From: Salegentibacter lacus
Lineage (GTDB): Bacteria; Bacteroidota; Bacteroidia; Flavobacteriales; Flavobacteriaceae
Assembly: GCF_020164555.1 (NCBI RefSeq)
Contig: NZ_JAIQZB010000004.1
Coordinates: forward strand, 124,001-188,000
DNA length: 64,000 nt
Direction: 5' to 3'
Made by a program: the position numbers and the translations under genes. Below, piece after piece: positions 4,707 through 42,058 of the stretch (its first letter is position 1; each line of letters opens with the position of its first letter). Below the pieces are notes generated by a model. It saw only the letters and a list, made by a program, of their open reading frames with translations, did not search any database and was not told the DNA's origin.

Positions 4707-4720
4707 TGTAATCGATTACA
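4707..4720. promoter_or_regulatory. Operator palindrome upstream of SusC
   Basis: TGTAATCGATTACA is a perfect 14-bp palindrome with a central CG, matching the general LacI/CcpA-family pattern TGWAANCGNTNWCA. It directly follows a TTTG (4703-4706) that could be the -33 element, so a bound repressor would cover the promoter spacer. The same 14 bases recur upstream of kduI and of the second GH28. The likely binder is the LacI-family protein encoded at 40713-41732. Confidence 0.75.
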
Positions 4721-4875
4721 ATAAATTGTTTAACTTAGAACAGGAATTGTACTTAGTACGTCAATTTAAACGAAATCGATATAGTATTAGAATTTAAATT
4801 TTTGAGAAATTATATCTAATAGATTCTCAATAACAATTAACCAATGAAAACTATTAATAATCAAAAAGATCAGTT

Positions 4876-7800
4876 ATGCATCAAAAAATGCTGAGACTAT
4901 CCCGAAGACAACTATTCTTGTTTGGGATGTTTATTTGTTTCTGTGCTCAATTAAGTGCTCAGGAGAATCAAGTGACGGGAACTATTTTAGATACTGAGAC
5001 TAACGAACCCTTGCTCGGTGTAAATGTACTTGAGAAAGGAACTTCTAATGGTGCGATGACCAATTTTGATGGTGAATATTCACTTGAAGTTTCAAGTCCG
5101 GATGCCGTTTTGGTGTTTAGCTATATTGGCTTTCAAACCCTTGAGGTTAATGTAGATGGGAGAAGCACTATCAATGCCAGCCTTCAAGTAGATTCAGATT
5201 CACTGGACGAGGTTGTGGTGGTAGGATATGGTACTACTAAAAAATCAGATTTAACAGGTTCGGTGGTATCAATTTCAGGAAACGAGCTTACGGAACAGGC
5301 AAGATCCAGCGTGGCTGAAACGCTAACGGGTAGACTTGCTGGTGTGCAAGTGACTTCTACAGAGGGTTCTCCCGATGCTGAAATAAATATTAGGATACGT
5401 GGTAACGGCTCTTTGACTCAGGATAGTTCGCCCTTAATAATTGTAGATGGTTTTCCTGTGGGTAGCATGAATGATATAAGTCCTACTGATATTGCGAGCA
5501 TTTCAGTGTTGAAAGATGCCTCATCTACCGCTATTTACGGTTCAAGAGGAGCAAACGGAGTTATAATTATCACTACCAAGGAAGGAAGGAGTGGTGAAAT
5601 AAATGTGAATTTCAATACTTTTTATGGATTTCAAAAAATTGCCAATACCCTGGATGTTCTAGGGCCGGAAGATTATGTTAAGTGGCAGTATGAATATGCG
5701 TTGCTTAGAGATTCTGAAAACTTAGATTCTTACGAGAGATATTTTGGACTTTGGCAGGATTACGATCAGTATGTCGGCCAGGAAGGCAATAACTGGCAGA
5801 AACAGATTTATGGTAATATGGGCGAAGTTCAGAGCCATGATATTGCGATTAGGGGTGGTTCTGAAAAGGCCAGTTTCAACTTTAATTATGCTCATTATGA
5901 TGTAAATACTATTATGCTTGGTTCAGATTATAAAAGAGACAACTTATCCTTAGCTCTTAAGAGTCAGGCTGGAGAGAAGGTAGATTTATCTTTTACCATT
6001 CGTTATTCCGAAACAGAGATCAACGGGGGTGGAACAAATGAACAAAATGAGATTTCTTCTGCAGATTCCCGATTGAAATATAGCGTTCAATATTCTCCTA
6101 TTCCAATTTCAGGGCTTACAACTACAAATACAGACCAGGCCTTAGCCGGTTATCTGGTTAATCCTTTTGTAGCTACATCTGATAATCAAAGACAGCAGCT
6201 TAGAAAGAATTTTAATATGTTAGGAAGTTTTGGCTGGGATATAATAGATAATCTTAGATTTCAATCTGATTTTGGACTTGACCATCGTATTGAACAGGAT
6301 TATCGCTATTATGGCCGCTCCACTTATTATTCGCGTAATAGACCATCTGCAGATAATCAGGGATTACCTGCGCTGGTTTATAGTGATCGAAAACGTGAAA
6401 GTTTTAGAAATGCTAATACGATTAATTATGATTTTAATAATTTCCTTAATGAAGATCATAATCTTAAATTGCTATTAGGTGAGGAGATGATTATCACCAG
6501 GGATAACGAGGAAACTTCTGAAATTCAAGGTTTTCCAAAGGATTTTGATTTCGAAACTACAAGAAAGTTAACTACTCAGGGTACGCCGCAAAGCGTCGAT
6601 AATTTCTACAGGCCTGATGATAAGTTATTGTCTTTCTTTGGGCGTGTTAATTATGATTATAAAAGTAAATATTTAGTTACAGCTACTTACCGTGCTGATG
6701 GATCTAGTAAATTTCTGGGCGATAATCGTTGGGGATACTTCCCTTCAGCAGCAGTAGCCTGGAAGCTAAAAGAGGAGAACTTTCTAAAAAACGTGGAATG
6801 GTTAGACGCTCTTAAGTTGAGATTAAGTTATGGTGAAGCTGGTAATAATAATATACCTGCCGGTCAAACCGTGCAAAGCTTTCAGTCAAATACTACTACC
6901 TATTTGAATGATATTCCAACTTATTGGTCATCTTCAAGAGTTCTGGCTAATCCAGATCTTAAATGGGAAACTACGGTTACACAGAATGTTGGTCTTGACT
7001 TTGATATGTTCGGAGGTGTCTTAAGGGGTAGTGTTGAGGCATATAAAAATATAACTACAGACCTGTTGCTTGCATTTCGTACGCCGGGATCTGGATATGA
7101 GTTTCAGTATAGAAATCTTGGAGAGATTCAAAATACAGGTATAGAAGGCTCATTAAATATTAATGCAATTACTAGGCAAGACTATGGATTAAGTTTCGCT
7201 GTTAATGCATCCGCAAACAGGAACAAAATTAATTCCTTAGGTTCTCTGGAAGATTATCAGGAATACTCAGGTTGGGCCTCTTCAGAAATTGGAAGTGATT
7301 ATGCTGTATGGGTTGGCCAACCTGTAGGTGCGATGTTTGGTTATAAAAATGATGGGCGTTATGAAGTATCAGATTTTGATTTTGATCCGGCCACAAGTAC
7401 TTATACACTAAAACCCGATGTGGTAGATAATAGTGAGCTTATTGGTGAAGTAATGCCTGGTTCTTTGAAGTTAAAGGATATTAATGGCGATGGAGTAGTA
7501 GATATTAATGACAACTCTATTATTGGAGACTCTAACCCCGATTTTACCGGTGGTTTTGTGTTAGATGCTTATGCATACGGATTTGATTTTACTGCGGCTT
7601 TTAACTTTAGCGTGGGGAATGATGTTTATAATGCTAACAAAGTTCAGTATGCCACAGCCAACGAGAACAGTCAGTATCGAAACTTAAGCACAATTATGGG
7701 AGATGGAAGTAGGTGGACAAACCTTAATCCTGAAACTGGCCAGCTTATAACTGATCCTGATGCGCTTACAGCTGCAAACACTAACACAACTATGTGGTCT

Positions 7801-8091
7801 CCAAATATGCGAAGTTACGTATTTAGTGATTGGGCAATAGAAGATGGTACATTTCTTAGGTTGAATACACTTAGTTTAGGTTACACCATACCTAGTTCGC
7901 TGATATCAAAATATAATATTACTAAACTAAGATTTTACGCAACGGCAAGTAATGTGTTTATCCTAACCAATTATTCAGGTCTTGATCCAGAAGTTTCTAC
8001 AAGGAGAAGTACTCCTCTTACTCCGGGAGTTGATTATTCTCCGTTTCCTAGAAACAGACAAGTGGTATTCGGATTAAACCTTAATTTTTAA
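4876..8091 (+). CDS. SusC/RagA-family TonB-dependent receptor
   Basis: Outer-membrane pore that imports oligosaccharides with energy from TonB, here presumably pectin oligomers. It is 1071 residues, normal for SusC. Order: signal peptide ending near LSAQ (about 30), a carboxypeptidase-D-like regulatory domain (about 33-115), the DEVVVVGYGTTKKSD segment that marks SusC proteins, the plug with LKDASSTAIYGSRGANGV, then a long beta barrel closing in VVFGLNLNF with a terminal aromatic. Its SusD partner follows after 7 bases, so the two form one unit. A perfect LacI-type palindrome lies about 155 bases upstream. No anti-sigma/ECF pair or hybrid two-component regulator is nearby, which supports repressor control. 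Confidence 0.95.
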   Translation: MHQKMLRLSRRQLFLFGMFICFCAQLSAQENQVTGTILDTETNEPLLGVNVLEKGTSNGAMTNFDGEYSLEVSSPDAVLVFSYIGFQTLEVNVDGRSTINASLQVDSDSLDEVVVVGYGTTKKSDLTGSVVSISGNELTEQARSSVAETLTGRLAGVQVTSTEGSPDAEINIRIRGNGSLTQDSSPLIIVDGFPVGSMNDISPTDIASISVLKDASSTAIYGSRGANGVIIITTKEGRSGEINVNFNTFYGFQKIANTLDVLGPEDYVKWQYEYALLRDSENLDSYERYFGLWQDYDQYVGQEGNNWQKQIYGNMGEVQSHDIAIRGGSEKASFNFNYAHYDVNTIMLGSDYKRDNLSLALKSQAGEKVDLSFTIRYSETEINGGGTNEQNEISSADSRLKYSVQYSPIPISGLTTTNTDQALAGYLVNPFVATSDNQRQQLRKNFNMLGSFGWDIIDNLRFQSDFGLDHRIEQDYRYYGRSTYYSRNRPSADNQGLPALVYSDRKRESFRNANTINYDFNNFLNEDHNLKLLLGEEMIITRDNEETSEIQGFPKDFDFETTRKLTTQGTPQSVDNFYRPDDKLLSFFGRVNYDYKSKYLVTATYRADGSSKFLGDNRWGYFPSAAVAWKLKEENFLKNVEWLDALKLRLSYGEAGNNNIPAGQTVQSFQSNTTTYLNDIPTYWSSSRVLANPDLKWETTVTQNVGLDFDMFGGVLRGSVEAYKNITTDLLLAFRTPGSGYEFQYRNLGEIQNTGIEGSLNINAITRQDYGLSFAVNASANRNKINSLGSLEDYQEYSGWASSEIGSDYAVWVGQPVGAMFGYKNDGRYEVSDFDFDPATSTYTLKPDVVDNSELIGEVMPGSLKLKDINGDGVVDINDNSIIGDSNPDFTGGFVLDAYAYGFDFTAAFNFSVGNDVYNANKVQYATANENSQYRNLSTIMGDGSRWTNLNPETGQLITDPDALTAANTNTTMWSPNMRSYVFSDWAIEDGTFLRLNTLSLGYTIPSSLISKYNITKLRFYATASNVFILTNYSGLDPEVSTRRSTPLTPGVDYSPFPRNRQVVFGLNLNF

Positions 8092-8098
8092 AATTTAG

Positions 8099-9898: not shown

Positions 9899-9925
9899 AA
9901 CCTAAACAGAATTAATTTATAAGTT

Positions 9926-17468: not shown

Positions 17469-17487
17469 ACTGAAATATTTATAATTT

Positions 17488-17530
17488 GGCACTATTAATT
17501 GAATTTTTTCGTAATTCGATTAATAGTGCC
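17488..17530 (+). terminator. Hairpin after the PL9 gene
   Basis: An 18-base arm (17488-17505) pairs with 17513-17530 with one G-T pair and a 7-nt loop. The T-run after it is weak (TTTAATTT), so it may be a terminator or an mRNA-stabilising hairpin. It separates the PL9 gene from the remnant and PL1 gene that follow. Confidence 0.55.
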
Positions 17531-17646
17531 TTTAATTTAAAAAAACAGGTTTGCTGGGCTTAAGACCCAAATGCGAATCGGAAAATTAACCTTTTAGATC
17601 AATTTCACGGCAGTTACAGAACTATTCTAAGGCCGATAAGGAGAAA

Positions 17647-17898
17647 ATGAAAATTGAACGAAACTTTCGTACAAGCAGTATCATTGATTTCCAGTCTGAT
17701 GTTGGAGGTTGGCCGGAGCTTTCTTCAGAAGAGCCAGCCCTTGATACTTCAGGAGATGGAATGCCTGATTCCTGGAAAGAGGAAATGGGACTTGACCCTG
17801 AGGCAAAAGAACCTAATGGCCGTGATTTGAGTACAGCCTACGATAACGTTGAAGTTTATATAAATAGCCTGGTAGAGAATATTATTCAAAACCAATAA
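17647..17898 (+). pseudogene. C-terminal remnant of a PL1-type pectate lyase
   Basis: An 83-codon frame in which about 60 residues closely match the C-terminus of the complete PL1 lyase just downstream: both share DVGGWPEL, DGMPD.WKEE, NGRDLS and YDNVEVYINSL. No beta-helix or catalytic segment precedes it; the frame is open for only some 20 codons upstream of the ATG and carries no lyase motif. It therefore looks like the tail left after deletion of a tandem lyase copy, lying 15 bases ahead of the intact copy. A free-standing small protein made of this tail alone cannot be ruled out. Confidence 0.75.
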
Positions 17899-17912
17899 CT
17901 AAAACTATATTA

Positions 17913-28627: not shown

Positions 28628-28691
28628 ACATAGGACAGTAGAAATAAAGAGGTCCCAGAATTTGATTTTTAATACGTAAATGTTACATTTG

Positions 28692-28794: not shown

Positions 28795-29631
28795 ATGACA
28801 AATTCAGAATTCAGATTTGCTCATCATCCCGATGATGTAAAGAAATATACAACGGAAGAATTGAGGGAACATTTTTTAATTCCTGAATTGTTCAAGAAAG
28901 ATGAAATCAATCTTACCTACACGATGTACGACCGCTATATTGCGGGTGGAGCTTTTCCGGTAAGCAAGAAAATTAAGCTTGATACCATAGACGATCTTAA
29001 AGCCGATTACTTTTTGGAGCGTCGTGAACTTGGCGTGATTAACGTAGGCGGAAAAGGAAAAATTACCGTAGACGGTGAAGTTTATGAACTTGGCCATAAA
29101 GAAGCTCTTTATGTGGGTCGCGGTAATAAAGAAGTGTTTTTTGAAGCTACCGATGGCGAACAGCCTTATTTCTACTTGAACTCTGCTCCGGCGCATAAAG
29201 AATATCCGGTAAAGAAAGTCACTTTAAATGATGCTGAGGTCGTAGAGCTTGGCGATAGTAAAACTTCTAATAAAAGAAGAATCAATAAGCTAATTGTAAA
29301 TAGTATTGTAGATACGTGTCAGTTGCAGATGGGGATGACAGAACTTATGGAAGGTAGTGTTTGGAATACAATGCCTCCACACACCCATACGCGTAGGATG
29401 GAAGTATATTTTTACTTCAACCTGGAAGAAGGGCAGAGTATTAGTCATTTTATGGGGCAGCCACACGAGACCCGTCATATTTTTATGAAAAACCACCAGG
29501 CGGTAATATCACCAGAGTGGTCTATTCACGCAGGTGCTGGAACTTCAAATTATATTTTTATTTGGGGAATGGCCGGAGAAAATCTCGACTATGGCGATAT
29601 GGATAAAGTAAGCCCGGAAGAATTAAAATAA
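28795..29631 (+). CDS. kduI: 5-dehydro-4-deoxy-D-glucuronate isomerase
   Basis: Cytoplasmic isomerase turning 5-keto-4-deoxyuronate (DKI) into 2,5-diketo-3-deoxygluconate (DKII). At 278 residues it equals the E. coli enzyme in length. The zinc ligands fall at the same positions as in that enzyme: H196 and H198 in PPHTHTRRME, E203, and H245 in EWSIHAGAG. It opens the catabolic operon, with kduD 7 bases behind. Its substrate is made by KdgF, encoded in the third unit at 46.6 kb. Confidence 0.97.
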   Translation: MTNSEFRFAHHPDDVKKYTTEELREHFLIPELFKKDEINLTYTMYDRYIAGGAFPVSKKIKLDTIDDLKADYFLERRELGVINVGGKGKITVDGEVYELGHKEALYVGRGNKEVFFEATDGEQPYFYLNSAPAHKEYPVKKVTLNDAEVVELGDSKTSNKRRINKLIVNSIVDTCQLQMGMTELMEGSVWNTMPPHTHTRRMEVYFYFNLEEGQSISHFMGQPHETRHIFMKNHQAVISPEWSIHAGAGTSNYIFIWGMAGENLDYGDMDKVSPEELK

Positions 29632-29638
29632 GGAGTAG

Positions 29639-30406
29639 ATGATAGAAGAAATGTTTAGTTTAAAAGGAAAAACAGCTTTAGTGACCGGTTGTAAACGCGG
29701 AATTGGTTTCGCTATGGCCGAAGCTTTAGCTGAGGCAGGCGCCGATATTTTGGGAGTTTCTGCTTCATTAGATCCGGAAGGTTCTAAAATTGAAAAACGT
29801 ATTAAAGAAATTGGAAGAAGCTTTAAAGGCTATCAATGTGATTTTTCCGATAGAAAATCGCTTTATGAGTTTATTGAAAAAATAAAGTCAGAGAATAGTC
29901 AGATTGATATTTTAGTAAATAATGCGGGTACAATTATGCGAAAACCTGCTGCTGAGCATCCCGATGAATATTGGGATAAGGTAATAGAAGTGAATCAAAA
30001 CGCACAGTTTATTCTTACCAGAGAGATTGGTAAAGAGATGGTAAAACGCGGAAGTGGAAAAGTGATTTTCACGGCTTCGCTACTTACTTTTCAGGGCGGA
30101 ATTACCGTGCCAGGCTATGCTGCTTCTAAAGGAGCGATTGGTCAGCTTACTAAAGCTTTCGCCAATGAATGGGCAGCTAAGGGCATTCAGGTAAATGCTA
30201 TTGCCCCGGGGTATATTGCTACCGATAATACGCAGGCTTTAAGGGAAGACCAAGACCGCAGTGAAGCTATTTTAGCACGAATCCCAGCCGGGCGTTGGGG
30301 TAAGCCGGAAGACTTTAAGGGTCCAACCTTATTACTGGCTTCGGCTGCCGGAAATTATATGAATGGATCGGTTATGCTGGTTGATGGTGGCTGGATGGGG
30401 CGATAA
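29639..30406 (+). CDS. kduD: 2-dehydro-3-deoxy-D-gluconate 5-dehydrogenase (SDR)
   Basis: Reduces 2,5-diketo-3-deoxygluconate to 2-keto-3-deoxygluconate (KDG) with NAD(P)H. The 255-residue short-chain dehydrogenase has the cofactor motif TGCKRGIG (16-23), NNAG (94-97), the catalytic Ser in FTASLL (S147) and YAASK (Y160, K164). It lies directly after kduI, the usual pairing, which fixes the specific assignment within the large SDR family. A start at the second Met (MFSLKG) is also possible. Confidence 0.93.
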   Translation: MIEEMFSLKGKTALVTGCKRGIGFAMAEALAEAGADILGVSASLDPEGSKIEKRIKEIGRSFKGYQCDFSDRKSLYEFIEKIKSENSQIDILVNNAGTIMRKPAAEHPDEYWDKVIEVNQNAQFILTREIGKEMVKRGSGKVIFTASLLTFQGGITVPGYAASKGAIGQLTKAFANEWAAKGIQVNAIAPGYIATDNTQALREDQDRSEAILARIPAGRWGKPEDFKGPTLLLASAAGNYMNGSVMLVDGGWMGR

Positions 30407-30442
30407 GATCACTTTTAACCAAGCTCTTCAAAAATAAAAAAT

Positions 30443-31846
30443 ATGAATAAAGAAAAATTTATAAAAGACAATTTTCTCCTGGATAATAAATATGCAGAGG
30501 AACTGTATACTAAATATGCTTCAAAGCAGCCAATTATAGATTACCACTGTCATTTATCTCCAAAAGAAATTGCTGAAGACAGGGTTTATGAAAATATCAC
30601 CCAGGTATGGATAGCCGGAGACCATTATAAATGGCGGGCTATGCGAACTTTGGGGATAGATGAAAAATTTATTACCGGGGATGCTTCAGATAAGGAGAAA
30701 TTTATGGCCTGGGCCAAAACAGTGCCGCATACCTTAAGAAATCCCTTATATCACTGGACGCATTTAGAATTGCAACGCTACTTCGGTATTGAGGAATTAT
30801 TGAATGAAGAATCTGCCGAGCGAATTTATGAAGAAGTAAACCAGCAATTGCAACAGCCCGAAAATTCATGTCGCGGACTTTTAAAGCAAATGAATGTTGA
30901 AACGGTTTGTACTACTGAAGATCCTGTAGATACTTTAAAATATCACCAGCAATTAGCAGAAAGTGATTTTGAAATAAAGGTAAGTACGGCATTTCGCCCT
31001 GACAAATCCATTCTAATTGATGCAGAAGGGTATAATGAGTACCTGGATAAACTAGGTGAAGTCGCTGAGATCTCGATAGATTCTTATGAAGATCTTCGAA
31101 ATGCGCTACGAAAGCGAATTCAGCATTTTGATGAAAATGGCTGCAAGTTATGTGATCACGGGTTGAACTTCATTTCCTCGGAGAACTTTACTGAAAATGA
31201 GGTAAATCAGATTTTTAGTAAAAAACGAGAAGGAGAAGATATTTCAGATTTAGAAGCTGAAAAATTTAAAAGTGCAATTTTATTGTTCCTTGGTGAAACC
31301 TACCACGAGTTTGGCTGGGTGCAACAATTCCATTTAGGCGCTTTACGTAATAATAATAAACGTATGCTGCGCCAGCTTGGCCCGGATACCGGTTGGGATT
31401 CTATTGGCGATTACCAGCAGGCTGAAAATCTTTCAGCATTCCTTGACACCCTTGATGGGAAGGATAAATTAACAAAAACCATTTTATATAATCTGAATCC
31501 CTCAGATAATGAAGTTTTTGCCACGATGATTGGAAACTTCAACGATGGCAGTATAAAAGGAAAAGTACAACTTGGTTCCGGCTGGTGGTTTTTAGACCAA
31601 AAAGACGGAATTATAAAGCAACTTAATGCCCTTTCCAATATGGGACTGGTGAGCTGTTTTATAGGCATGCTTACAGATTCCAGAAGTTTCCTTTCTTACC
31701 CGAGACACGAATATTTTAGAAGGGTGGTTTGTAATTTATTTGGCCATGAAATGGCCAGCGGAGAATTACCCGACGATATTGAGCTTGTTGGTAAAACAGT
31801 AGCTGATATTAGTTATAATAATGCTAAAGAATATTTCGATTTTTAA
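30443..31846 (+). CDS. uxaC: Uronate isomerase
   Basis: Converts D-galacturonate to D-tagaturonate and D-glucuronate to D-fructuronate. It is 467 residues, the standard length of this amidohydrolase-fold enzyme. The metal-binding start YHCHLSPKEIAED, the block WIAGDHYKWRAMRTLG and the conserved FHLGALRNNNKRM are all present, as is GWDSIGDYQQAENLS. It provides the entry for saturated galacturonate released by GH28. It overlaps kdgK by a single base. Confidence 0.96.
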   Translation: MNKEKFIKDNFLLDNKYAEELYTKYASKQPIIDYHCHLSPKEIAEDRVYENITQVWIAGDHYKWRAMRTLGIDEKFITGDASDKEKFMAWAKTVPHTLRNPLYHWTHLELQRYFGIEELLNEESAERIYEEVNQQLQQPENSCRGLLKQMNVETVCTTEDPVDTLKYHQQLAESDFEIKVSTAFRPDKSILIDAEGYNEYLDKLGEVAEISIDSYEDLRNALRKRIQHFDENGCKLCDHGLNFISSENFTENEVNQIFSKKREGEDISDLEAEKFKSAILLFLGETYHEFGWVQQFHLGALRNNNKRMLRQLGPDTGWDSIGDYQQAENLSAFLDTLDGKDKLTKTILYNLNPSDNEVFATMIGNFNDGSIKGKVQLGSGWWFLDQKDGIIKQLNALSNMGLVSCFIGMLTDSRSFLSYPRHEYFRRVVCNLFGHEMASGELPDDIELVGKTVADISYNNAKEYFDF

Positions 31847-32871
31847 TGGGAAAGTCAGGCGAAAATAAAGGGAAAGTAGTGACTTTTGGCGAAGTGCTGA
31901 TGCGTTTATCTCCTGCTGGAAATAAAAAGCTTCAGCAAGCTGACAGTTTAGAATTTTTCTTTGGCGGTACAGAGCTGAATGTTGCGGAATCCCTATCTTA
32001 TTTTGGCTTGGAAGTAACCCATGTTTCCAATGTTTCCAATGATTTGGTAGGGGAGGCCGCTTTGGCTTTTATCCGTCAGTTTGGGGTAGATGTTTCGGCA
32101 ATAAAAAAAGTAGATCACCCATTGGGACTTTATTTTCTGGAAGTTGGAGCCGCTATGCGCCCTAGTCAAATAGCCTATAACCGTCTGAATGCCGCTTTTG
32201 CAAATATTTCTCCCGAGGATGTAGACTGGGCGAATATTCTTAAAGATGCCGCCTATTTTCATTGGACGGGGATCACTCCCGGAATTTCACAAAATGCTTA
32301 TGAAACGCTAAAGACAGGACTTAAAGAAGCTAAAAAACAAGGAGTAACAGTTTCAGCCGATCCGGCATATCGGAGCAATCTATGGAAGTATGGCAGGGAA
32401 GGCCGTGAAGTCCTGGCAGAGCTTACCGGGCTTTCTAATATTTTTATCGGCGGAGTGAATGAGATCAATGAAATTCTAAAAACCGATTTTGAATTTAGCG
32501 AAGAAGGATTTATTAACGCAAGCAAAAAGCTGATGAAAACGTATCCTTCAATCGAAAAGGTTTTCGACAAGGTACGCACCGGTCTTAGTGCTTCCTGGCA
32601 GAAAATTTACGGACAGGCCTGGACGGGTACCGAATATATAACTACCCAAGAACTTGAAATCACTGATGTTGTAGATAGAATTGGTACCGGAGATGCTTAT
32701 GCTGCCGGAATTTTATATGGTTTGCAACATTTTGATGATCAAAAAACACTGGAGTTTGCCAATGCGGCTTGTGCTCTAAAGCATACTATTTTAGGAGATG
32801 CGAACCTGGTTAGTGTAGAGGAAGTAATGGAAGTTACCCGGGGAAATACCGGCGGAAGAATTAAAAGATAA
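31846..32871 (+). CDS. kdgK: 2-keto-3-deoxygluconate kinase (PfkB family)
   Basis: Phosphorylates KDG to KDPG, where the unsaturated-uronate, tagaturonate and fructuronate branches meet. The 341-residue protein has the PfkB N-terminal motif GGTELNVAESLSYFG and the C-terminal signature DRIGTGDAYAAGILYG with the catalytic Asp. The family is broad, but the position between uxaC and eda makes KDG the natural substrate. Its ATG overlaps the uxaC stop by one base; eda starts 15 bases later. Confidence 0.94.
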   Translation: MGKSGENKGKVVTFGEVLMRLSPAGNKKLQQADSLEFFFGGTELNVAESLSYFGLEVTHVSNVSNDLVGEAALAFIRQFGVDVSAIKKVDHPLGLYFLEVGAAMRPSQIAYNRLNAAFANISPEDVDWANILKDAAYFHWTGITPGISQNAYETLKTGLKEAKKQGVTVSADPAYRSNLWKYGREGREVLAELTGLSNIFIGGVNEINEILKTDFEFSEEGFINASKKLMKTYPSIEKVFDKVRTGLSASWQKIYGQAWTGTEYITTQELEITDVVDRIGTGDAYAAGILYGLQHFDDQKTLEFANAACALKHTILGDANLVSVEEVMEVTRGNTGGRIKR

Positions 32872-32886
32872 TATTCAGAAAAAAAT

Positions 32887-33558
32887 ATGGCAAAATATAC
32901 AAGGATAGATACAGTACAGGTTATGAAGGAAACGGGCATAGTCCCTGTTTTCTATCATAAAGACCTGGAGGTTTGTAAAAAAGTGGTAAAATCTTGTTAT
33001 GATGGTGGCGCCAGAGTTTTTGAGTTTACCAACCGTGGCGATTTTGCTCACGAGGTTTTTGCGGAATTAAATAAATATGTTTCCGAAGAATTAGATGGGA
33101 TGATTCTTGGCGTGGGCTCAATTATCGATGAAGGAACTACTTCATTATACCTTCAGCTTGGTGCTAATTTTATAGTATCTCCTATTGTACAAGCAGAAAT
33201 GGCCAAAACCTGTAACCGTAGAAAAGTAGCCTGGATTCCAGGTTGTGGAACTGTTACTGAAATTTCTTATGCGCAGGAATTAGGTGCAGAAGTTGTGAAA
33301 ATCTTTCCCGGCGCGCAAGTTGGCGGGCCTTCGTTTGTAAAAGCCGTTAAAGGACCAATGCCCTGGAGTAGTATAATGCCTACGGGCGGAGTTAGTCCTT
33401 CTGAGGAAAATTTAAAAGAGTGGTTCGATTCAGGAGTCCACTGCGTAGGAATAGGATCAAAATTATTTCAGAAGAATACAGATGGTACTTTTGACTACAA
33501 GGAGATATCGAGAAGAGTAAAGTCGGCCCTTGAAATCGTTAAAAAATTGAAGTCATGA
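32887..33558 (+). CDS. eda: KDPG aldolase (2-keto-3-deoxy-6-phosphogluconate aldolase)
   Basis: Class I aldolase splitting KDPG into pyruvate and glyceraldehyde-3-phosphate. The 223-residue protein has the Schiff-base Lys in VVKIFPG (K138), the EFTNRG motif (E46, R50) that replaces the usual E.TLR in many Bacteroidota homologues, and the phosphate-binding PTGGVS loop. It completes the pathway and is coupled to dctP by an ATGA overlap. Confidence 0.95.
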   Translation: MAKYTRIDTVQVMKETGIVPVFYHKDLEVCKKVVKSCYDGGARVFEFTNRGDFAHEVFAELNKYVSEELDGMILGVGSIIDEGTTSLYLQLGANFIVSPIVQAEMAKTCNRRKVAWIPGCGTVTEISYAQELGAEVVKIFPGAQVGGPSFVKAVKGPMPWSSIMPTGGVSPSEENLKEWFDSGVHCVGIGSKLFQKNTDGTFDYKEISRRVKSALEIVKKLKS

Positions 33559-34550
33559 GAAATTTACAATTTTTTCGTGCTTTAAAAATTAGTTTCTGTT
33601 TCATAGTGATTTTCAGTCTTAGCGCATGCGACGCGATAAAAAGGGATGTTACTGTTATAAAATTAGGTCACGGTTTAGATACTTCACACCCTGTGCACGA
33701 AGCGATGCTATTTATGGCAGAGCGTGCTAAAGAAAAATCAAATGGCAGTATAGAAATTGATATTTACCCTAATCAGCAATTAGGATCAGAGCGGGAATCT
33801 TTGGAACTCCTTCAAATTGGTAGTTTGGGAATGACTAAGGTTTCAACTGGAGTTTTAGAGAATTTTATTCCTAGTTTAAAGGTTTTCGGACTTCCTTTTT
33901 TATTCCGGGACCGCGAACATCGGTTTAAAGTTTTGGAGAGTGAATTAGGAGAGAAACTTTTAAATGATGGGATAGGAAAACGATTGAAAGGTCTAACCTT
34001 TTATGATGCTGGAAGTAGAAGCTTTTACGGTAAAGAACCAATGGATAGTCCGGAAGACCTGGAAGGCCTTAAACTTCGGGTTATGGAAAGTAATACTGCA
34101 ATGAATATGGTGCAAATGCTTGGTGGCTCGCCAACACCAATTGCCTGGGGCGAACTTTACACGGCCTTACAACAGGGAATAGTAGATGGGGCGGAGAATA
34201 ACCTGCCTAGTTTCTATTTGTCCAGACATTACGAAGTGTGTAAATTTTATATGGTAGATGAGCATACCGCGCTTCCAGATGAGTTGCTTATAAGTACAAT
34301 GGTTTGGAATAAACTATCAGAAGAAGAAAAAGTATGGCTCAAAGAGGCTGCTATGGAATCCTCGGAACATGAAAAAAAATTATGGCGAGAGGCCGAATTA
34401 GAAGCCTTGGAAGCAATACAAGAAGCTGGGGTAAAAGTAACATATCCTGAAAAGGAGAAATTTAGGGAAATGGTACAACCGATGTATGAAGAATTTTCCA
34501 AAGACCCGGAAATGAAGAAAATCATTGACGCCATACAGGCAGTAAAATAA
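33555..34550 (+). CDS. TRAP transporter substrate-binding lipoprotein (DctP type)
   Basis: Binds an organic acid in the periplasm and delivers it to the DctQM membrane pair. The 331-residue protein has a lipoprotein signal (FSLSACDA, Cys about 25) and the TRAP binding core, including LGHGLDTSHPVHEAM, PNQQLGSERESLELLQIG and the carboxylate-binding Arg in LKLRVMES. Being lipid-anchored is less usual than the free periplasmic form. Inside a uronate catabolic operon the ligand is most likely galacturonate, glucuronate or an unsaturated uronate. Known uronate TRAP systems from other phyla support this. Confidence 0.92.
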   Translation: MRNLQFFRALKISFCFIVIFSLSACDAIKRDVTVIKLGHGLDTSHPVHEAMLFMAERAKEKSNGSIEIDIYPNQQLGSERESLELLQIGSLGMTKVSTGVLENFIPSLKVFGLPFLFRDREHRFKVLESELGEKLLNDGIGKRLKGLTFYDAGSRSFYGKEPMDSPEDLEGLKLRVMESNTAMNMVQMLGGSPTPIAWGELYTALQQGIVDGAENNLPSFYLSRHYEVCKFYMVDEHTALPDELLISTMVWNKLSEEEKVWLKEAAMESSEHEKKLWREAELEALEAIQEAGVKVTYPEKEKFREMVQPMYEEFSKDPEMKKIIDAIQAVK

Positions 34551-34555
34551 AGATT

Positions 34556-35023
34556 ATGAAACTAATTCTTGATAAAATTTTAGGCTCGCTGCTAGTGTTT
34601 TTAATGGTAGTTATGGTTACAGCAGTTTCCTGGCAAGTGTTTTCCAGGTATATCCTTCAGTCCTCCAGTTCGTTTACTGAAGAGATTGCACGTTATTTAT
34701 TAATATGGATTGGCATATTGGGTGCAGCTTTCATAGCTGGCCAGCAACAACACCTTTCCATAGATATTTTAGCTCCCAAACTAAGCCCGAAAAATCGAAT
34801 AAAACTTCGAATGGGAATTAATGTGCTTATTATTCTTTTCTGTCTTTTGGTGCTGGTTATTGGTGGTAGTAACCTGGTTTATTTGAATTATTTACTAGGA
34901 CAAACCTCGGCAGCACTTAATATTCCCCTTGGAGCAGTTTATACTGTTATTCCTATAAGTGGAGTGCTTGTGATAATTTATAAAGTAAATGAACTATTGA
35001 ACCCTAAACAGTATTTAGTATGA
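34556..35023 (+). CDS. TRAP transporter small permease (DctQ type)
   Basis: Small membrane subunit of the TRAP uronate carrier, 155 residues with four predicted membrane spans. The family motif is visible in SSSFTEEIARYLLIWIGILG (about 37-56), followed by GQQQHLSID. It lies 5 bases after the binding protein and overlaps the large permease by ATGA. Its role is structural, joining binding protein and transporter. The family call is secure from motif and context. Confidence 0.92.
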   Translation: MKLILDKILGSLLVFLMVVMVTAVSWQVFSRYILQSSSSFTEEIARYLLIWIGILGAAFIAGQQQHLSIDILAPKLSPKNRIKLRMGINVLIILFCLLVLVIGGSNLVYLNYLLGQTSAALNIPLGAVYTVIPISGVLVIIYKVNELLNPKQYLV

Positions 35024-36309
35024 TGTTAGAAGTATTAATACTGGTAATTTCTTTTATAATTCTCCTGAGTATTGGGGTGCCGGTAGCCTGGTCTATTGGT
35101 ATATCCTGTGTACTCACCATGTTGGTTTCCATAGATTCCATGGCAGCTTATACTACGGTAGCGCAAAGAATGGCAACAGGTTTGGATAGTTTCTCCTTAT
35201 TGGCTATTCCATTTTTTATCCTGGCGGGACAAATTATGAATCAGGGCGGGATTGCAACGAAACTTATAGATTTTGCCAAAGCGCTTATTGGAGCGCTCCC
35301 CGGCGGATTAATTTATGTAAATGTCATTGCGGCAATGCTTTTTGGTGCTATTTCAGGTTCTGCAGTAGCAGCAACTTCTGCTATTGGTGGAATTTTGGGC
35401 CCAAGAATGGAGAAAGAAAACTATTCAAGAGAGTTTGGTGCAGCCATAAACGTTACAGCCTCTACGACAGGTTTGGTGATTCCGCCTTCTAACGTCCTCA
35501 TAGTTTATTCCCTGGCCAGTGGTGGAGTATCTATTGCTGCTCTTTTCCTTGCGGGTTATATTCCCGGGATTTTGATGGGACTGGCCCTAATGCTTACCGC
35601 AGCTGTATGGATTAAAAAGAAAAAATATCCACCGGGGGAGAGAAGCAGTTTTAAAAGAATTGGCTATACTTTTTTAGATGCTTTTCCTAGTTTATTCTTA
35701 CTTATCGTAGTAATTGGAGGTATTGTGACGGGGATATTTACAGCAACAGAGGCTTCGGCTATTGCCGTTTTGTACACCCTAATCCTTTCAGGGATATACC
35801 GGCAATTAAATTTGAAAAAGCTGTATAATATATTTCTTAGCTCGGTTGGAACAACAGCCATAGTTATGTTGCTTATAGCTACATCTATGAGTATGTCCTG
35901 GGTAATGTCTTTTGAAAATATCCCACAATCGGTGAGTGAGGTTTTACTCGGCTTAAGCGACAATAAGTTTGTGATACTTTTGATAATCAATCTTTTACTT
36001 TTGTTTGTAGGGACTTTTATGGATATGACCCCTGCCATCCTGATTTTTACGCCAATATTTTTACCGGTAATGGAAAACCTGGGTATAGATCCGGTACATT
36101 TTGGGATTATAATGGTAATGAATTTATGTGTTGGCCTATGTACACCACCGGTAGGCGCGGTGCTCTTTATCGGTGTTAGTGTTGCTAAAACAACCATACA
36201 AAAAGTAATTAAGCCCTTGTTACCGCTTTATGTGGTAATGGCCATTGTACTTTTACTTATCACTTTTATCCCGGCGCTCAGCCTTTGGTTACCGGCCTTA
36301 TTTGAATAA
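35020..36309 (+). CDS. TRAP transporter large permease (DctM type)
   Basis: Sodium- or proton-coupled transport subunit, 429 residues, with about a dozen hydrophobic spans. Landmarks of the family are FILAGQIMNQGGIA, the GAISGSAVAATSAIGGIL loop, and NVTASTTGLVIPPSNVLIVY. The start is either the first or second of two adjacent ATG codons. With DctP and DctQ it completes a three-part carrier for uronate monomers. Such carriers are uncommon in Bacteroidota polysaccharide loci, where MFS hexuronate permeases are more usual. Confidence 0.93.
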   Translation: MMLEVLILVISFIILLSIGVPVAWSIGISCVLTMLVSIDSMAAYTTVAQRMATGLDSFSLLAIPFFILAGQIMNQGGIATKLIDFAKALIGALPGGLIYVNVIAAMLFGAISGSAVAATSAIGGILGPRMEKENYSREFGAAINVTASTTGLVIPPSNVLIVYSLASGGVSIAALFLAGYIPGILMGLALMLTAAVWIKKKKYPPGERSSFKRIGYTFLDAFPSLFLLIVVIGGIVTGIFTATEASAIAVLYTLILSGIYRQLNLKKLYNIFLSSVGTTAIVMLLIATSMSMSWVMSFENIPQSVSEVLLGLSDNKFVILLIINLLLLFVGTFMDMTPAILIFTPIFLPVMENLGIDPVHFGIIMVMNLCVGLCTPPVGAVLFIGVSVAKTTIQKVIKPLLPLYVVMAIVLLLITFIPALSLWLPALFE

Positions 36310-36334
36310 TTAATTATTCCGAAAATCTAATATT

Positions 36335-37789
36335 ATGAAAACACTAAACAGAAAAAATACTGGAATTGATATTGAACATCCAATAAAAGTAGTCCAGTTT
36401 GGCGAAGGGAATTTTCTACGTGCATTTGTAGATTATGTGATTGATAAGCTCAATGAACAGGCTGGTTTTAATGCCGGTGTAGCCGTGGTGCAACCTATTG
36501 CTTCAGGAATGGTATCTATGCTCAACGACCAGGATGGTTTGTATAATCTTTTTATGCGAGGAATTAAGAATGGGAAGGAAATTCAGGAAAAGCGTACTAT
36601 TTCCTGTATTCAGAAAGGTATAAATCCTTACGAGGATTATGCGCAATATATGGCACTTGCGGAAGAGGAGCAATTACAATTTGTTATTTCCAATACCACT
36701 GAAGCAGGAATATCTTTTGATGAAAAAGATACGTTAGATGGAACACCTCATAATAGCTTTCCGGCAAAACTTACAGCCTTACTTTATAAACGATTTCAAC
36801 ATTTTAAAGGTGATAAAAATAAGGGACTAACTATCATTCCTTGTGAGCTCATAAACCATAATGCAGATACGCTAAAAGAAATTATTTTAAAGTATGCCAA
36901 TTTATGGAAGTTGGAAAAGGAATTCAGCGATTGGATCAATCAATCTAACAGTTTTCATAATACGCTTGTAGATCGAATAGTTCCGGGATATCCAAAAGAT
37001 GATATAGAAAATTATCAGAAGGAACTCGAGTTTGAAGATAAACTTGTGGTAACAGCTGAAGTTTTTCTGCTTTGGGTAATTGAAGGTGACGAAAAATTAA
37101 AGCAAAAAATCCCATTTGATAAAATAGATGAAAATATATTGGTTGTAAAGGATATGCAACCTTACCGTACCCGTAAAGTACGCATCCTAAACGGAGCGCA
37201 TACTACAATGGTGCCTTTCTCATTATTATATGGTAACGAAACAGTAAAAGAAACTATAGACAACAGTTTTACCGGCGAATTTGTTAAGGAAGCTGTTTTT
37301 GAAGAAATCAACCCAACACTTTCTTTAGGCAAAGAAGAACTGGACACTTTTGCCAATGAGGTTTTTGATCGTTTTAGGAATCCATTTATTAAACATCAAC
37401 TTGCGAGTATAGCCCTAAACTCTATATCAAAATTTAAAGTTCGGGTATTACCAAGTTTAATTGCTTACCAGGATAAAAATAACGAGTTGCCCTTACGTCT
37501 CACTTACGCTATGGCCTGTTTAATCAGGTTTTATCGCGGAGAATGGGAAGGCAAGTTACTTCCGGTAAAAGACGATGCAGAAATTACCGATTTCTTCAAA
37601 AAAGTATGGGAACAACATAGTTATAAAGATATTTCCAGGGATGTGCTTCAGAAGAAAGAATTCTGGGGGGAAGACCTTACTAAAATCCCGGTTTTAAAGA
37701 AGCATATCGCCTATGCTTTGGATTTAATTGAAAATAAAGGAATAGAAGAAGGTTTTTCCGTTTTTTCAGAAGAGCTAAGGGTGCAGTAA
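36335..37789 (+). CDS. uxaB: Tagaturonate reductase (altronate oxidoreductase)
   Basis: NADH-dependent reduction of D-tagaturonate to D-altronate. The 484-residue protein belongs to the mannitol/altronate dehydrogenase family. The N-terminal Rossmann motif VVQFGEGNFLRAFVDYVID and the catalytic block RKVRILNGAHT (with the Lys and His of the family) are clear. UxaA follows after 16 bases, which favours altronate over mannonate or mannitol as product. No part is missing. Confidence 0.94.
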   Translation: MKTLNRKNTGIDIEHPIKVVQFGEGNFLRAFVDYVIDKLNEQAGFNAGVAVVQPIASGMVSMLNDQDGLYNLFMRGIKNGKEIQEKRTISCIQKGINPYEDYAQYMALAEEEQLQFVISNTTEAGISFDEKDTLDGTPHNSFPAKLTALLYKRFQHFKGDKNKGLTIIPCELINHNADTLKEIILKYANLWKLEKEFSDWINQSNSFHNTLVDRIVPGYPKDDIENYQKELEFEDKLVVTAEVFLLWVIEGDEKLKQKIPFDKIDENILVVKDMQPYRTRKVRILNGAHTTMVPFSLLYGNETVKETIDNSFTGEFVKEAVFEEINPTLSLGKEELDTFANEVFDRFRNPFIKHQLASIALNSISKFKVRVLPSLIAYQDKNNELPLRLTYAMACLIRFYRGEWEGKLLPVKDDAEITDFFKKVWEQHSYKDISRDVLQKKEFWGEDLTKIPVLKKHIAYALDLIENKGIEEGFSVFSEELRVQ

Positions 37790-37805
37790 AGAAATAAGAA
37801 AAAGT

Positions 37806-39422
37806 ATGGAAAAGAAAGCGATAAAGGTTCATCCTGATGATAATGTGGCTGTAGCCCTTATAGACGTGTGGGAAGATAACGTGATTCAGGTTGAAAATGA
37901 TAAAGTAAAATTAGTTACCAATACTAAAGCCAAACATAAATTTAGCCTGGTAGATCTGGCTGAAGGTGACAAAATATTTATGTATGGTGTTCTTGTTGGA
38001 AAGGCAATGATGCCTATAAAACGTGGGGAAGTTCTCACGGTAAATAATGTAAAACACGAGAGCAATACTGCTTATAAAAAAACAGAAACTACTTCCTGGA
38101 ATGCTCCCGATATTTCTAAGTGGAAAGACAGAACTTTTAACGGTTACCACCGTCCAGACGGGCAGGTAGGGACTAAAAACGTCTGGTTATTTTTTCCGTT
38201 GGTATTTTGTGAAAATAAAAATATTGAAAAGCTAAAAGACGTTTTTGAAAATGAATTGTCTTTTCATAAATCCTCGCGGCAACGATTGCTACTTCGAAAA
38301 TTAATTCACGGTGAGGATTCCGATGTTATGTTAGACAACGAACCGGAAGAAAGTGCAATTTTTGACAATATAGAAGTAAAGTTTATCACCCACCAGGGCG
38401 GCTGTGGCGGCATTAGACAGGATAGTGCCTCATTGGCGAGATTATTATCAGGTTATGTGAACAATCCTAATGTTGCCGGTGCAACAGTGCTTAGTTTAGG
38501 CTGTCAGAATTTACAAATCGATATTTTTAAAAATGCCTTAAAAAGGATTAATCCCGACATCCAAAAACCGGTTCTAATTTATGAGCAACAACAAATGGGA
38601 ACGGTAGATGAAATGATGGATACCATTATTAAAGAATCTTTTTCAGAAGTTAAGAAAGCAAATGAAATTAAGCGAAAACCGGCTCCACTATCAAAAATAA
38701 AATTAGGATTGGAATGCGGTGGTTCTGATGGTTTCTCGGGGATTTCAGCAAATCCCGCTCTAGGTTATGCCTCAGATTTATTAGCAGCTTTGAAAGGCTC
38801 CCCAATTCTTTCTGAATTTCCTGAATTATGCGGAATTGAGCAGGAATTGGTGAACCGTTGCGTTTCCGATGAAATCGCCGAGCGTTTTATTGAACTTACC
38901 CGGGCTTATGAAAAGGCCGCAATAGCATCAGGATCAGGTTTTGATATGAATCCGTCTCCGGGTAATATTAAAGATGGTTTAATTACCGATGCAATGAAGT
39001 CGGCTGGAGCTGCCAAGAAAGGAGGAACTTCTCCAATTGAAGACGTGTTGGACTACGGCGATTATGTTACAAAACCAGGTTTAAACCTTTTAAACACTCC
39101 GGGCAATGATGTGGAAAGCACAACCGCTATGGTAGGTGCAGGAGCAAGTGTGGTAGTATTTACTACTGGTTTGGGAACGCCTACAGGAAACCCTGTTGCA
39201 CCGGTAATAAAAGTATCTTCCAATTCAACTCTGGCCAGGACAATGCCAGATATTATTGATATAGATTCTGGCGGAGTAATTCGTGGAGAAAAAACCATAG
39301 AAGAAATGGGCGAAGAAATTCTGGAATTCATAATTCAGGTTGCCAGTGGCGAAGTTGAATCTAAAGCCGATCAATTAAATCAGGACGATTTTATTCCGTG
39401 GAAACGAGGGGTTTCATTATAG
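37806..39422 (+). CDS. uxaA: Altronate dehydratase
   Basis: Dehydrates D-altronate to KDG. It is 538 residues, a single-chain enzyme with an N-terminal SAF-like domain (about 1-95) and a C-terminal UxaA/GarD domain. Conserved Cys-rich motifs are visible: THQGGCGGIRQDS, LSLGCQNLQ and LECGGSDGFSGISANPALG, which hold the metal site of the family. It joins the saturated galacturonate branch to KdgK. Together with uxaB and uxaC it completes the classical isomerase pathway. Confidence 0.95.
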   Translation: MEKKAIKVHPDDNVAVALIDVWEDNVIQVENDKVKLVTNTKAKHKFSLVDLAEGDKIFMYGVLVGKAMMPIKRGEVLTVNNVKHESNTAYKKTETTSWNAPDISKWKDRTFNGYHRPDGQVGTKNVWLFFPLVFCENKNIEKLKDVFENELSFHKSSRQRLLLRKLIHGEDSDVMLDNEPEESAIFDNIEVKFITHQGGCGGIRQDSASLARLLSGYVNNPNVAGATVLSLGCQNLQIDIFKNALKRINPDIQKPVLIYEQQQMGTVDEMMDTIIKESFSEVKKANEIKRKPAPLSKIKLGLECGGSDGFSGISANPALGYASDLLAALKGSPILSEFPELCGIEQELVNRCVSDEIAERFIELTRAYEKAAIASGSGFDMNPSPGNIKDGLITDAMKSAGAAKKGGTSPIEDVLDYGDYVTKPGLNLLNTPGNDVESTTAMVGAGASVVVFTTGLGTPTGNPVAPVIKVSSNSTLARTMPDIIDIDSGGVIRGEKTIEEMGEEILEFIIQVASGEVESKADQLNQDDFIPWKRGVSL

Positions 39423-39438
39423 ATTAAACATTTAAAAA

Positions 39439-40623
39439 ATGGCAGGGAAAAAAACTATAAAAGCAGGGATTATAGGATCGGGTTTTGCCGCCAAATTCCA
39501 TTTCGATGCCATTCAAAGAGTTTTTAGTTGTGATGTGGAAGTGGTAGGGATTTATTCAAAAACCCCTTTAAATTCTCGATCTTTCGCTGAAGAAAGAGAT
39601 TTGAAATCCTTTTCTTCTTTACCAGATCTCATTCAGGCTTCCGATATCATTCATCTTTGTACACCGCCCGTTACTCACGAGAGCATTGCTATAGAGGTAA
39701 TGAAACTCGATAAAGATATCATCATTGAAAAACCACTTACCGGCTATTTTGGGGAAGGAAATGAAGGTTTTTCTGGGGATGATTTTTCAAAGGAAACAGG
39801 ACTTAAAAAAGCCCTGGAAAGTATTAGCCGTATTCTCGATGCTGAAAAGCAAAGTAAGGGACGGGTAATGTATGCTGAAAACTGGATTTATGCGCCGGCT
39901 ATTCAGAAGGAAAGAGAAATTCTTGAAAAAGCCGGTGGGCAGATCCATTGGATCCAGGCACAGCAATCGCATTCCGGTTCCCATTCCCAGGATTATGGAA
40001 AATGGCATTTATCCGGTGGTGGCTCGCTGATGGGAAAAGGTTGTCATCCATTAGCAGGAGCACTTTATCTAAAAGCGGTTGAGGGAAAAGCGCTAAACGG
40101 GAAACCAATTCGGCCAAAATCTGTATCCTGTAGAACCCACGCTATAACCCGCCAGGAAAATTTCAAAAATAAAGGCCATTTGCGCGATTCTTATACCGAT
40201 GTGGAGGATTACGCTTTTACGCATATTGTTTTTGAAGATGGAAGTGTGGCCGATATTGTAGCCAGTGAATTACTGCACGGCGGAGTAAAAAACTACCTGG
40301 AAGTTCATGCCAACGATCATCGCACAATTTGTAATCTCACACCTAACAATGCGATGCAAACCTACAATCCCGATGATGAGAATTTTAAAGATATTTATGT
40401 GGTAGAAAAAACCGGCACTAAACAGGGCTGGTCCAATATTTCTCCAGATGAAGCCTGGTTTAATGGATACCAACATGAAATGGAAGCTTTTTATAGATCT
40501 TCAGCATTTGGAGAAGCTATTGAAAGCGACAGTAACCTGGCTGCAAATGTGATTGCTACTATTTATTCTGCCTATGTTTCTGCAGAAAAGAAGGGAATTG
40601 AAGTAGAAATACAAAGCTTTTAA
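39439..40623 (+). CDS. Gfo/Idh/MocA-family oxidoreductase
   Basis: Cytoplasmic NAD(P)-dependent dehydrogenase of unknown substrate, 394 residues. The Rossmann motif AGIIGSGFAAKFHFDAI opens the protein, and IIIEKPLTG gives the family EKP motif. The second, beta-sheet domain begins near residue 145. As last gene of the kduI operon it probably handles a sugar or uronate derivative that the standard enzymes do not, for example a methylated or modified uronate or a side-chain sugar. No known pathway step is left open here, so the substrate is a true unknown. Confidence 0.85.
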   Translation: MAGKKTIKAGIIGSGFAAKFHFDAIQRVFSCDVEVVGIYSKTPLNSRSFAEERDLKSFSSLPDLIQASDIIHLCTPPVTHESIAIEVMKLDKDIIIEKPLTGYFGEGNEGFSGDDFSKETGLKKALESISRILDAEKQSKGRVMYAENWIYAPAIQKEREILEKAGGQIHWIQAQQSHSGSHSQDYGKWHLSGGGSLMGKGCHPLAGALYLKAVEGKALNGKPIRPKSVSCRTHAITRQENFKNKGHLRDSYTDVEDYAFTHIVFEDGSVADIVASELLHGGVKNYLEVHANDHRTICNLTPNNAMQTYNPDDENFKDIYVVEKTGTKQGWSNISPDEAWFNGYQHEMEAFYRSSAFGEAIESDSNLAANVIATIYSAYVSAEKKGIEVEIQSF

Positions 40624-40712: not shown

Positions 40713-41732
40713 TTAATTTCTAATAGAAGAACCTCTAACAATAAGTTCTGGAGTGAGGACTACTTTCTTTTCAATACTTACTTTCTTATTTTCATTCATT
40801 TGTTCCAGAAAAACCTGTGCAGCAATTTTCCCCATAGTGAGGGGTGTTTGATCTACGGTGCTTATTGGAAGTTCCATGTATTTTGTAAATGGTTCATTAC
40901 TAAAACCGGTTACACAAACATCTTTTGGAATTTTAAGCCCCATTTTTTTTAGTTCCTGAATAGCACCTAAAGCGGTGTAATCACTGGCAGAAAAAATAGC
41001 ATCGGGTTTTTTCTTTAATTTCCATAATTCTTCAATTGCAGATGCTCCCGATTCTATCTTACTATTGGTTTTTATTATAAAATCAGGTTCAACTTCCAGA
41101 TTATTATCTTCTAAAGCTTTAATATAACCATCGTGTCGATTTTTATAAATTTCAAGGTTTAGATCGCCAGATAAATGGGCAATTCTCTTGCAACCCTGCT
41201 CAATAAGTTGCTGTGTTGCCATGTAACCGGCTTTAAAGTCATCAATTATTACAGAACTCACTCCGGGTACTTCTTTTTTACGGTCAAAAAATACTAAGGG
41301 AGTACCTTCTGCTAAGGCTTTTTCAATATGATCAGTATTTAAAGTGGTCTTGGAAACCGACATAAAAATACCATCTATCTGAGTATTGATAAGGGTGTTA
41401 ATTTGTTCAATTTCATTTTCATAATTTTCATGGGTCTGGCAAATAATTACGTGATACCCATGAGGAGTAAGTTCTTCTTCAATTCCTCTAATTACCGATG
41501 AGAAAAAACTACGATTTATATAAGGCACAATTACGCCCACATTGTTACTCTTCCCGCTTTTTAATGCCTGTGCTAAACGGTTCTGTTTGTAATTCATTTC
41601 TTTAGCGGTCTTCAATACCAATTCCCGAGTACTTAAACTGATTTTTGGATTATTATTTAAGGCGCGGGAAACCGTTGCAGCACTAACATTTAGCTTTTTC
41701 GAAATATCGTAAATAGTTACTTTATCTTTCAT
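40713..41732 (-). CDS. LacI-family transcriptional regulator
   Basis: DNA-binding repressor of about 339 residues, counted from the ATG at 41732 (a TTG 11 codons upstream is less likely). The N-terminal HTH reads VTIYDISKKLNVSAATVSRAL, with hinge KEMNYKQNRLAQALKSGKSN. The rest is the periplasmic-binding-protein-like sensor domain. It lies between, and opposite to, the catabolic operon and the second GH28 unit. An imperfect copy of the TGTAATCGATTACA palindrome lies about 170 bases upstream of its start, which fits autoregulation. Its inducer may be a uronate or KDG, by analogy with other pectin regulators. Confidence 0.93.
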   Translation of the reverse strand: MKDKVTIYDISKKLNVSAATVSRALNNNPKISLSTRELVLKTAKEMNYKQNRLAQALKSGKSNNVGVIVPYINRSFFSSVIRGIEEELTPHGYHVIICQTHENYENEIEQINTLINTQIDGIFMSVSKTTLNTDHIEKALAEGTPLVFFDRKKEVPGVSSVIIDDFKAGYMATQQLIEQGCKRIAHLSGDLNLEIYKNRHDGYIKALEDNNLEVEPDFIIKTNSKIESGASAIEELWKLKKKPDAIFSASDYTALGAIQELKKMGLKIPKDVCVTGFSNEPFTKYMELPISTVDQTPLTMGKIAAQVFLEQMNENKKVSIEKKVVLTPELIVRGSSIRN

Positions 41733-41900
41733 AGTAATAAGTAGGAAAATATTTGAATCGTGCAATTTGTTGCATTACGAAAATATAAAAAAAGCTCAAA
41801 AAAAGCTTTTAATTGCGAAGAATGTAATTAAAAACTTTAACCTTCTGCCATTTTTGATGATTTTCTTGTTAGGAAATGGAATCGCAATGGAGTAATTTGA

Positions 41901-41914
41901 AGTAATCGATTCCA
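41901..41914. promoter_or_regulatory. Degenerate operator between lacI-type gene and GH28
   Basis: AGTAATCGATTCCA differs at two positions from the exact palindrome. It lies between the divergent regulator and GH28 genes, 131 bases before the exact site at 42045. It could serve autoregulation of the regulator or form a loop with the exact site. Confidence 0.4.
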
Positions 41915-42044
41915 AATACGGTCTATTAATTTTTAAATGCAGACCTTTTCTTGGTAAAATTCGGCGGTTTTTTAATTAAGGGCGATTAAAATTTAATAAT
42001 TTACTGATCTTTTTAGTGTGATTGTTATTTATTTTATATTTTAG

Positions 42045-42058
42045 TGTAATCGATTACA
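42045..42058. promoter_or_regulatory. Operator palindrome upstream of second GH28
   Basis: Third exact copy of TGTAATCGATTACA, 22 bases before the ATG at 42081, preceded by TTAG where the other two copies have TTTG. Being so near the start codon, bound repressor would block transcription directly. Confidence 0.78.

Follow-up and report, generated by a model that had tools for sequence, protein, structure and literature searches.

Regulation of polysaccharide utilisation loci (PULs) is known mostly from gut Bacteroides, where it is dominated by sensor kinases. In Bacteroides, the pectin PULs have hybrid two-component systems (HTCS_Rgu) as their assigned regulators (PMC3878776), and three LacI-family proteins, KdgR (BT0487), UxaR (BT0824) and UxuR (BT1434), are predicted regulators of glucuronate and galacturonate catabolism (PMC3878776, PMC4052901). 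Two regulators of other kinds, ManR (GntR family) and AraR, couple SusC/SusD operons to monosaccharide catabolism (PMC3878776). Here we describe a stretch of 64,000 nucleotides from Salegentibacter lacus (hereafter the window) in which a 14-bp palindrome stands before three sets of pectin genes and a LacI-family regulator is encoded nearby. Judged from its sequence, the window holds a compact pectin regulon of a predicted LacI-type repressor with three strong operators. This kind of system is known; going by the literature searched, the regulon itself appears to be new, as do its operator and the geometry of its promoters: no description of the regulon was found there, with subscription journals, preprints and the supplementary regulon tables of PMC3878776 outside the search.

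The palindrome TGTAATCGATTACA, with the layout TGTAAT-CG-ATTACA, was found by an exact pattern scan at 4707-4720 (O1), 28692-28705 (O2) and 42045-42058 (O3). These are the three identical sites that the initial annotation had placed in the gaps preceding SusC, kduI and the second GH28, and Pfam puts the corresponding targets at 4876, 28795 and 42063. O1 is intergenic, 155 bp before the SusC open reading frame (ORF), and heads the SusC/SusD unit, O2 precedes kduI, and O3 is in the gap from which the LacI and GH28 genes diverge. The annotation had likened the site to LacI/CcpA-type operators; the palindrome has the central CG of LacI/GalR operators and fits the form of the catabolite-responsive element (cre). 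In the whole genome (4,054,538 bases in 128 contigs) there are three exact copies versus 0.042 expected at the genome's base composition; all are inside the window, within 37.4 kb, and none is away from pectin genes, so that the refuting outcome named in the initial annotation, many copies elsewhere, is not seen in this genome. One copy with a single mismatch is found on the same contig, ~25 kb past the window, and 11 copies have two mismatches, including a pair in the window at 4554-4567 and 41901-41914. Eight of the nine two-mismatch sites outside the window are inside called ORFs and one (L009) is in none. The genome total at up to two mismatches is 15, compared with 11 for a reversed-pattern control, so the signal resides in the exact copies. 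The window by itself has five matches at this level, whereas 100 dinucleotide shuffles of it average 0.33 and never exceed 2.

The LacI-family gene was correctly located by the initial annotation between two of the units: it occupies 40713-41732 on the minus strand, between O2 and O3, and encodes 339 aa from an ATG at 41732. The protein has the N-terminal LacI helix-turn-helix (HTH) and the periplasmic-binding-like sensor domain of the LacI/GalR family (PF00356, 47.9 bits against a cut-off of 27; Peripla_BP PF00532, 134.5 bits; PF13377, 114.3 bits), and, again as in that family, its candidate operator is found at the promoters of adjacent sugar genes. Its recognition segment reads VSAATVSR. 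Five genes in the genome encode LacI-type HTHs, and the AATVSR helix is present only in the window protein; the other four carry SVSTVSK, SISTVSK, SPSTISR and SATTVSF. The helix is retained in the closest homologues (loci L035-L042, L049 and L081-L110), and the nearest homologues among the named loci are from Salegentibacter, at 90-94% identity. In a sequence search of solved structures the best-scoring match was CcpA, PurR and others were also returned, and no uronate regulator appeared by name. The score against the NCBIfam ccpA model TIGR01481 is 198.9 bits, below the cut-off of 442.35, so the protein does not qualify as a CcpA equivalog. We also noted that the Pedobacter loci L043-L050 (other than L049) encode distant LacI proteins with VSTVSR (42-44% identity) or TSTVSR helices and hold the palindromes TGCAACCG(A/T)TTGCA or TGCAATCGGTTGCA. 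Together with the window protein, they offer natural material for asking which residues read which bases.

Across 299 Flavobacteriaceae genomes, 42 encode a close homologue, defined as a protein with at least 55% identity to the window LacI (the next-ranked protein has 51%). The exact 14-mer is present in 24 of these 42 versus 6 of the 257 others (nominal Fisher p ~9e-19). In total there are 53 copies in 30 genomes, and the reversed control occurs in 7 genomes, once in each. The relaxed motif TGYAATCGATTRCA gives 113 sites in 37 of the 42 homologue genomes and four sites in four of 42 control genomes, with one match for the reversed control in each set (nominal Fisher p ~1e-13); the control genomes were the first in number order that lack the homologue, have at least 3.0 Mb and are at least 90% complete. 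Nearly two thirds of the listed sites (48/75) are no more than 50 kb from the LacI gene. In five of the six non-homologue genomes that have the exact 14-mer, from five genera (L055, L056, L058, L065, L066), the site is inside an ORF of 813-817 aa, and its flanks are similar from one genome to the next. From this, the five apparently represent a single conserved coding stretch; the L056 protein matches no Pfam family. The sixth site (L067) is in a short locus, 157 bp from its start, and no ORF was called close by.

We examined the surroundings of 103 sites. Three are those of the window, 11 come from the named loci, and 89 are among the 110 further sites of the 42 genomes. Most are outside called ORFs (92/103); the other 11 lie no deeper than 77 nt into an ORF whose start was called permissively. 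Kdu isomerase (kduI), SusC, GH28 or pectate-lyase genes follow 73 of the 103. By nearest target, kduI accounts for 21, SusC for 20, GH28 for 19, and relatives of a 1322-aa protein sorted by the type IX secretion system (T9SS) for 8, followed by uxaC (4), LacI itself (2), uxaB (2), DUF4861 (2) and one each of CE8, PL10, fructose-bisphosphatase, GH43, kduD and PL9. The remaining 19 carried no label, and 17 distinct proteins representing all but one of them were searched in Pfam. Ten of these proteins (11 sites) are pectate lyases (PF00544), and the others are an alginate lyase, an MFS transporter, a laminin-G protein, a GH106 enzyme, a pyruvate:ferredoxin oxidoreductase and two proteins without a family.

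The flavobacterial -7 box, TAnnTTTG, directly abuts the operator at 41 of the 103 sites, and all other offsets on both sides total 13. With the looser TAnnTTnG, the box abuts at 65 sites, including every kduI site (21/21). Upstream of the box, TTTG or TTGG is found 38 times with its end at a distance of 18-20 bp, and no other spacing has more than four occurrences. In the window, the box TACGTTTG abuts O1 at 4699-4706 (plus strand), with a -33 TTTG at 4676-4679, a 19-bp spacer and a predicted start near 4711; the box TACATTTG abuts O2 at 28684-28691 (plus strand), with TTTG at 28661-28664, again a 19-bp spacer, and a predicted start near 28696; and the box-like TATTTTAG, one base off TAnnTTTG, abuts O3 at 42037-42044 (plus strand), with a predicted start near 42049. 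In F. psychrophilum the -7 box sits at -12 to -5 (PMC9723704), which would put the operator at roughly -4 to +10. It should therefore cover the transcription start, a place suited to a blocking repressor. Neither the abutting box nor the weaker partner sites described next had been noticed in the initial annotation.

Of these partner sites, TGAAATCGATTGCA (4554-4567) is 153 bp upstream of O1. The other, AGTAATCGATTCCA (41901-41914), is 144 bp upstream of O3 and also lies ahead of the LacI gene, 168 bp from its start codon. Around 106 anchors, with exact pairs counted from both ends, 39 second sites are within 250 bp, and each further 250-bp bin out to 2 kb holds one to six. Among 28 pair clusters, 20 have their sites 142-203 bp apart. 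With regard to control of the regulator's own gene, a scan upstream of 40 LacI genes (TCGA core, up to three mismatches) found at least one site in 36 and two in 19, and where an abutting -7 box is present in these regions it faces the divergent gene. The spacings of the 28 clusters show periodicity at 10.5 bp (R 0.60, p 0.0006 with the best period allowed), as do 26 values from a hand-collapsed set in which one of three spacings of one cluster was kept (p 0.0001). Seven later values alone show no phasing (p 0.48), and the effect is gone when only spacings more than 2 bp apart are used (n=18, p 0.31). A wider pair search of 397 genomes gave matches in 18, several of them in coding-like sequence; the 98 newly searched genomes gave one match, which was not counted toward the regulon. 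A replicate through the genera of G049 and G245 had 1 and 6 genomes, too few to be informative. Helical phasing of the paired operators is thus suggestive only.

Taken together, the 14-bp sites before the three pectin operons are very probably landing sites of the repressor encoded beside them, and we hold with high confidence a model in which the LacI protein of 40713-41732 represses the SusC, kduI and GH28 units through O1-O3 and is released by a pathway intermediate. In this model, a dimer of the protein would bind the palindrome directly past the -7 box and block RNA polymerase at the three promoters. During pectin breakdown, an intermediate of the galacturonate/2-keto-3-deoxygluconate (KDG) pathway would bind the sensor domain and release the repressor, so that the genes for surface uptake, for cytoplasmic catabolism and for accessory enzymes come on jointly. 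The weaker sites ~150 bp away in the SusC and LacI-GH28 regions would probably reinforce repression or tune expression of the regulator itself. Binding, repression as opposed to activation, the effector and the role of the second sites are the parts of this model that we infer. The proposal in the initial annotation that one local LacI regulator serves capture, catabolism and accessory enzymes is backed by the family-wide comparison of sites and homologues, in which the two recur together.

Several observations weigh against this model. Kinship among the genomes makes the Fisher p-values too small. Since the homologue and pectin genes move together, co-occurrence by itself does not tell the protein from its neighbours; this protein is indicated because of its recognition helix and the position of the site at the promoter. 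The relaxed motif is missing from five of the 42 homologue genomes. Three of these (G011, G108 and G017) have one-mismatch sites near the LacI gene, and in G246 a palindrome scan of 20 kb was empty and the wider pair search found a weaker pair beside the LacI gene, leaving G014, where the palindrome scan found no site in the 20 kb searched. At 38 of the 103 sites, TAnnTTnG does not abut the operator, and two targets, the alginate lyase (L140) and the pyruvate:ferredoxin oxidoreductase (L180), are not obviously pectic. Finally, in Gramella flava grown on pectin, pelL and the uxa/kdg genes are induced and the susC-susD pair of the pectin PUL is not (PMC5306329), which would agree with the second and third units of the window and not clearly with the first.

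The alternative that survives best, although we consider it unlikely, is that the protein is an activator or a dual regulator. CcpA-like proteins can activate from upstream sites, and O1 and O3 do each have a second site on the upstream side of the promoter. Against this, the strong site adjoins the -7 box, where at most promoters it should overlie the start. Improbable to a greater degree is that the palindrome belongs to another regulator, either a LacI paralogue or a global CcpA-like protein, with the local LacI serving other sites. The 14-mer does fit the cre form, half-sites are alike within the LacI family, and in the literature searched the identical sequence appears in one paper, as a cre site of S. 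aureus hla (PMC9598941); a global regulator, on the other hand, would require more than three exact genomic sites, the HTH segments of the four paralogues differ from that of the window protein, and the site tracks the presence of the homologue over the 299 genomes. A global CcpA-like site was accordingly rejected as the principal explanation, given the confinement of the exact sites to 37.4 kb and the score under the ccpA cut-off. An origin of the three copies by chance, or as a repeat that regulates nothing, has a negligible probability and was rejected: the two-mismatch counts are indeed near those of the reversed control, but the excess of exact copies over expectation, all in gaps before pectin genes, the shuffles, and the recurrence of the sites before the same genes in other genera speak against it.

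The three operators head gene sets that would each form a unit, all on the plus strand. Unit 1 (4876-28627, a single predicted transcript) encodes SusC, SusD, a DUF4957/DUF5123 protein, the T9SS-sorted 1322-aa protein, a PL9-like and a PelZ-like protein (the latter by NCBIfam match, the rest of the unit by Pfam), a PL10-type pectate lyase, an esterase, GH88/105, CE8, DUF4861, GH43 and GH28; a 444-bp gap at 17469-17912 could house a further promoter. Unit 2 (28795-40623) encodes kduI, a kduD-like short-chain dehydrogenase, uxaC, kdgK, kdgA (2-keto-3-deoxy-6-phosphogluconate aldolase), the P, Q and M components of a TRAP transporter, uxaB, uxaA and a Gfo/Idh/MocA protein, with assignments from Pfam and, for kduI (equivalog) and uxaB (tagaturonate reductase subfamily), from NCBIfam as well. 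Unit 3 (42063-45528; Pfam, NCBIfam) encodes the second GH28, whose ORF begins at 42063 or, counted from the first ATG, at 42082, a second CE8 pectin esterase and a GDSL esterase. It possibly runs on through fructose-bisphosphatase, cupin, uxuA, mannonate oxidoreductase and UxaE genes to 50300. The class 1 fructose-bisphosphatase gene is at 45606-46613, and in genome G144 (L165) an operator stands directly before its homologue, which fits the demand for gluconeogenesis on pectin. Among 45 of the 60 listed window ORFs, Pfam gave no match to a hybrid two-component system, AraC or sigma/anti-sigma protein.

Other features of the region were noted. The one-mismatch copy GGTAATCGATTACA past the window (L004, contig C63:213456-213469) is intergenic. 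The gene on one side encodes a GntR-HTH regulator that has a sugar-binding domain, and the gene on the other a rhamnulose-1-phosphate aldolase/dehydrogenase; the copy could bring rhamnogalacturonan-derived rhamnose into the regulon, or be a site of the GntR protein. Immediately upstream of the SusC unit is a tyrosine recombinase gene of the phage integrase family (3112-4371), perhaps a trace of PUL transfer. At 50822-52174, acyl-CoA dehydrogenase domains are divided between the adjacent ORFs 50822-51259 and 51269-52174, as a result of a frameshift, a pseudogene or an assembly error. A minus-strand group at 56153-62943 (GH106, GH88, an esterase-GH43 fusion and a 3-keto-disaccharide hydrolase) has no relaxed-motif site in front of it.

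When marine and soil Bacteroidota break down pectin, they carry out an important carbon step. A 14-bp operator, a defined promoter geometry and a single protein make control of pectin PULs in Flavobacteriaceae directly testable. The motif may serve for the prediction of pectin genes across dozens of genera, and the arrangement offers a ready design for inducible promoters. A wider proposal, which we put forward tentatively and hold to be more doubtful than not, is that in much of the family a LacI-type repressor instead of a hybrid two-component system runs the whole pectin programme from outer-membrane capture to pyruvate. A strong operator placed on the transcription start and a weaker partner on the same helical face would then let two bound dimers loop the DNA. 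E. coli LacI has an extra C-terminal tetramer helix, and under looping the 339-aa protein would act without one.

In comparison with known systems, the predicted regulon resembles those of Bacteroides KdgR, UxaR and UxuR in its LacI family, in its predicted control of uronate and KDG catabolism and in having been deduced by comparative genomics. As in that group, its targets are uronate and KDG catabolic genes, seen in the content of unit 2 and in the 21 kduI and 4 uxaC genes among the 103 sites. CcpA structures are the best sequence matches of its regulator and its site fits the cre form; it differs from the CcpA system in that its sites are few and pathway-specific. Unlike in Bacteroides, one LacI site type here also precedes a unit of SusC/SusD and lyase genes. 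This reach resembles that described for ManR and AraR, where one regulator covers outer-membrane uptake and cytoplasmic catabolism with other protein families and for other sugars, so such a design is already known in the phylum.

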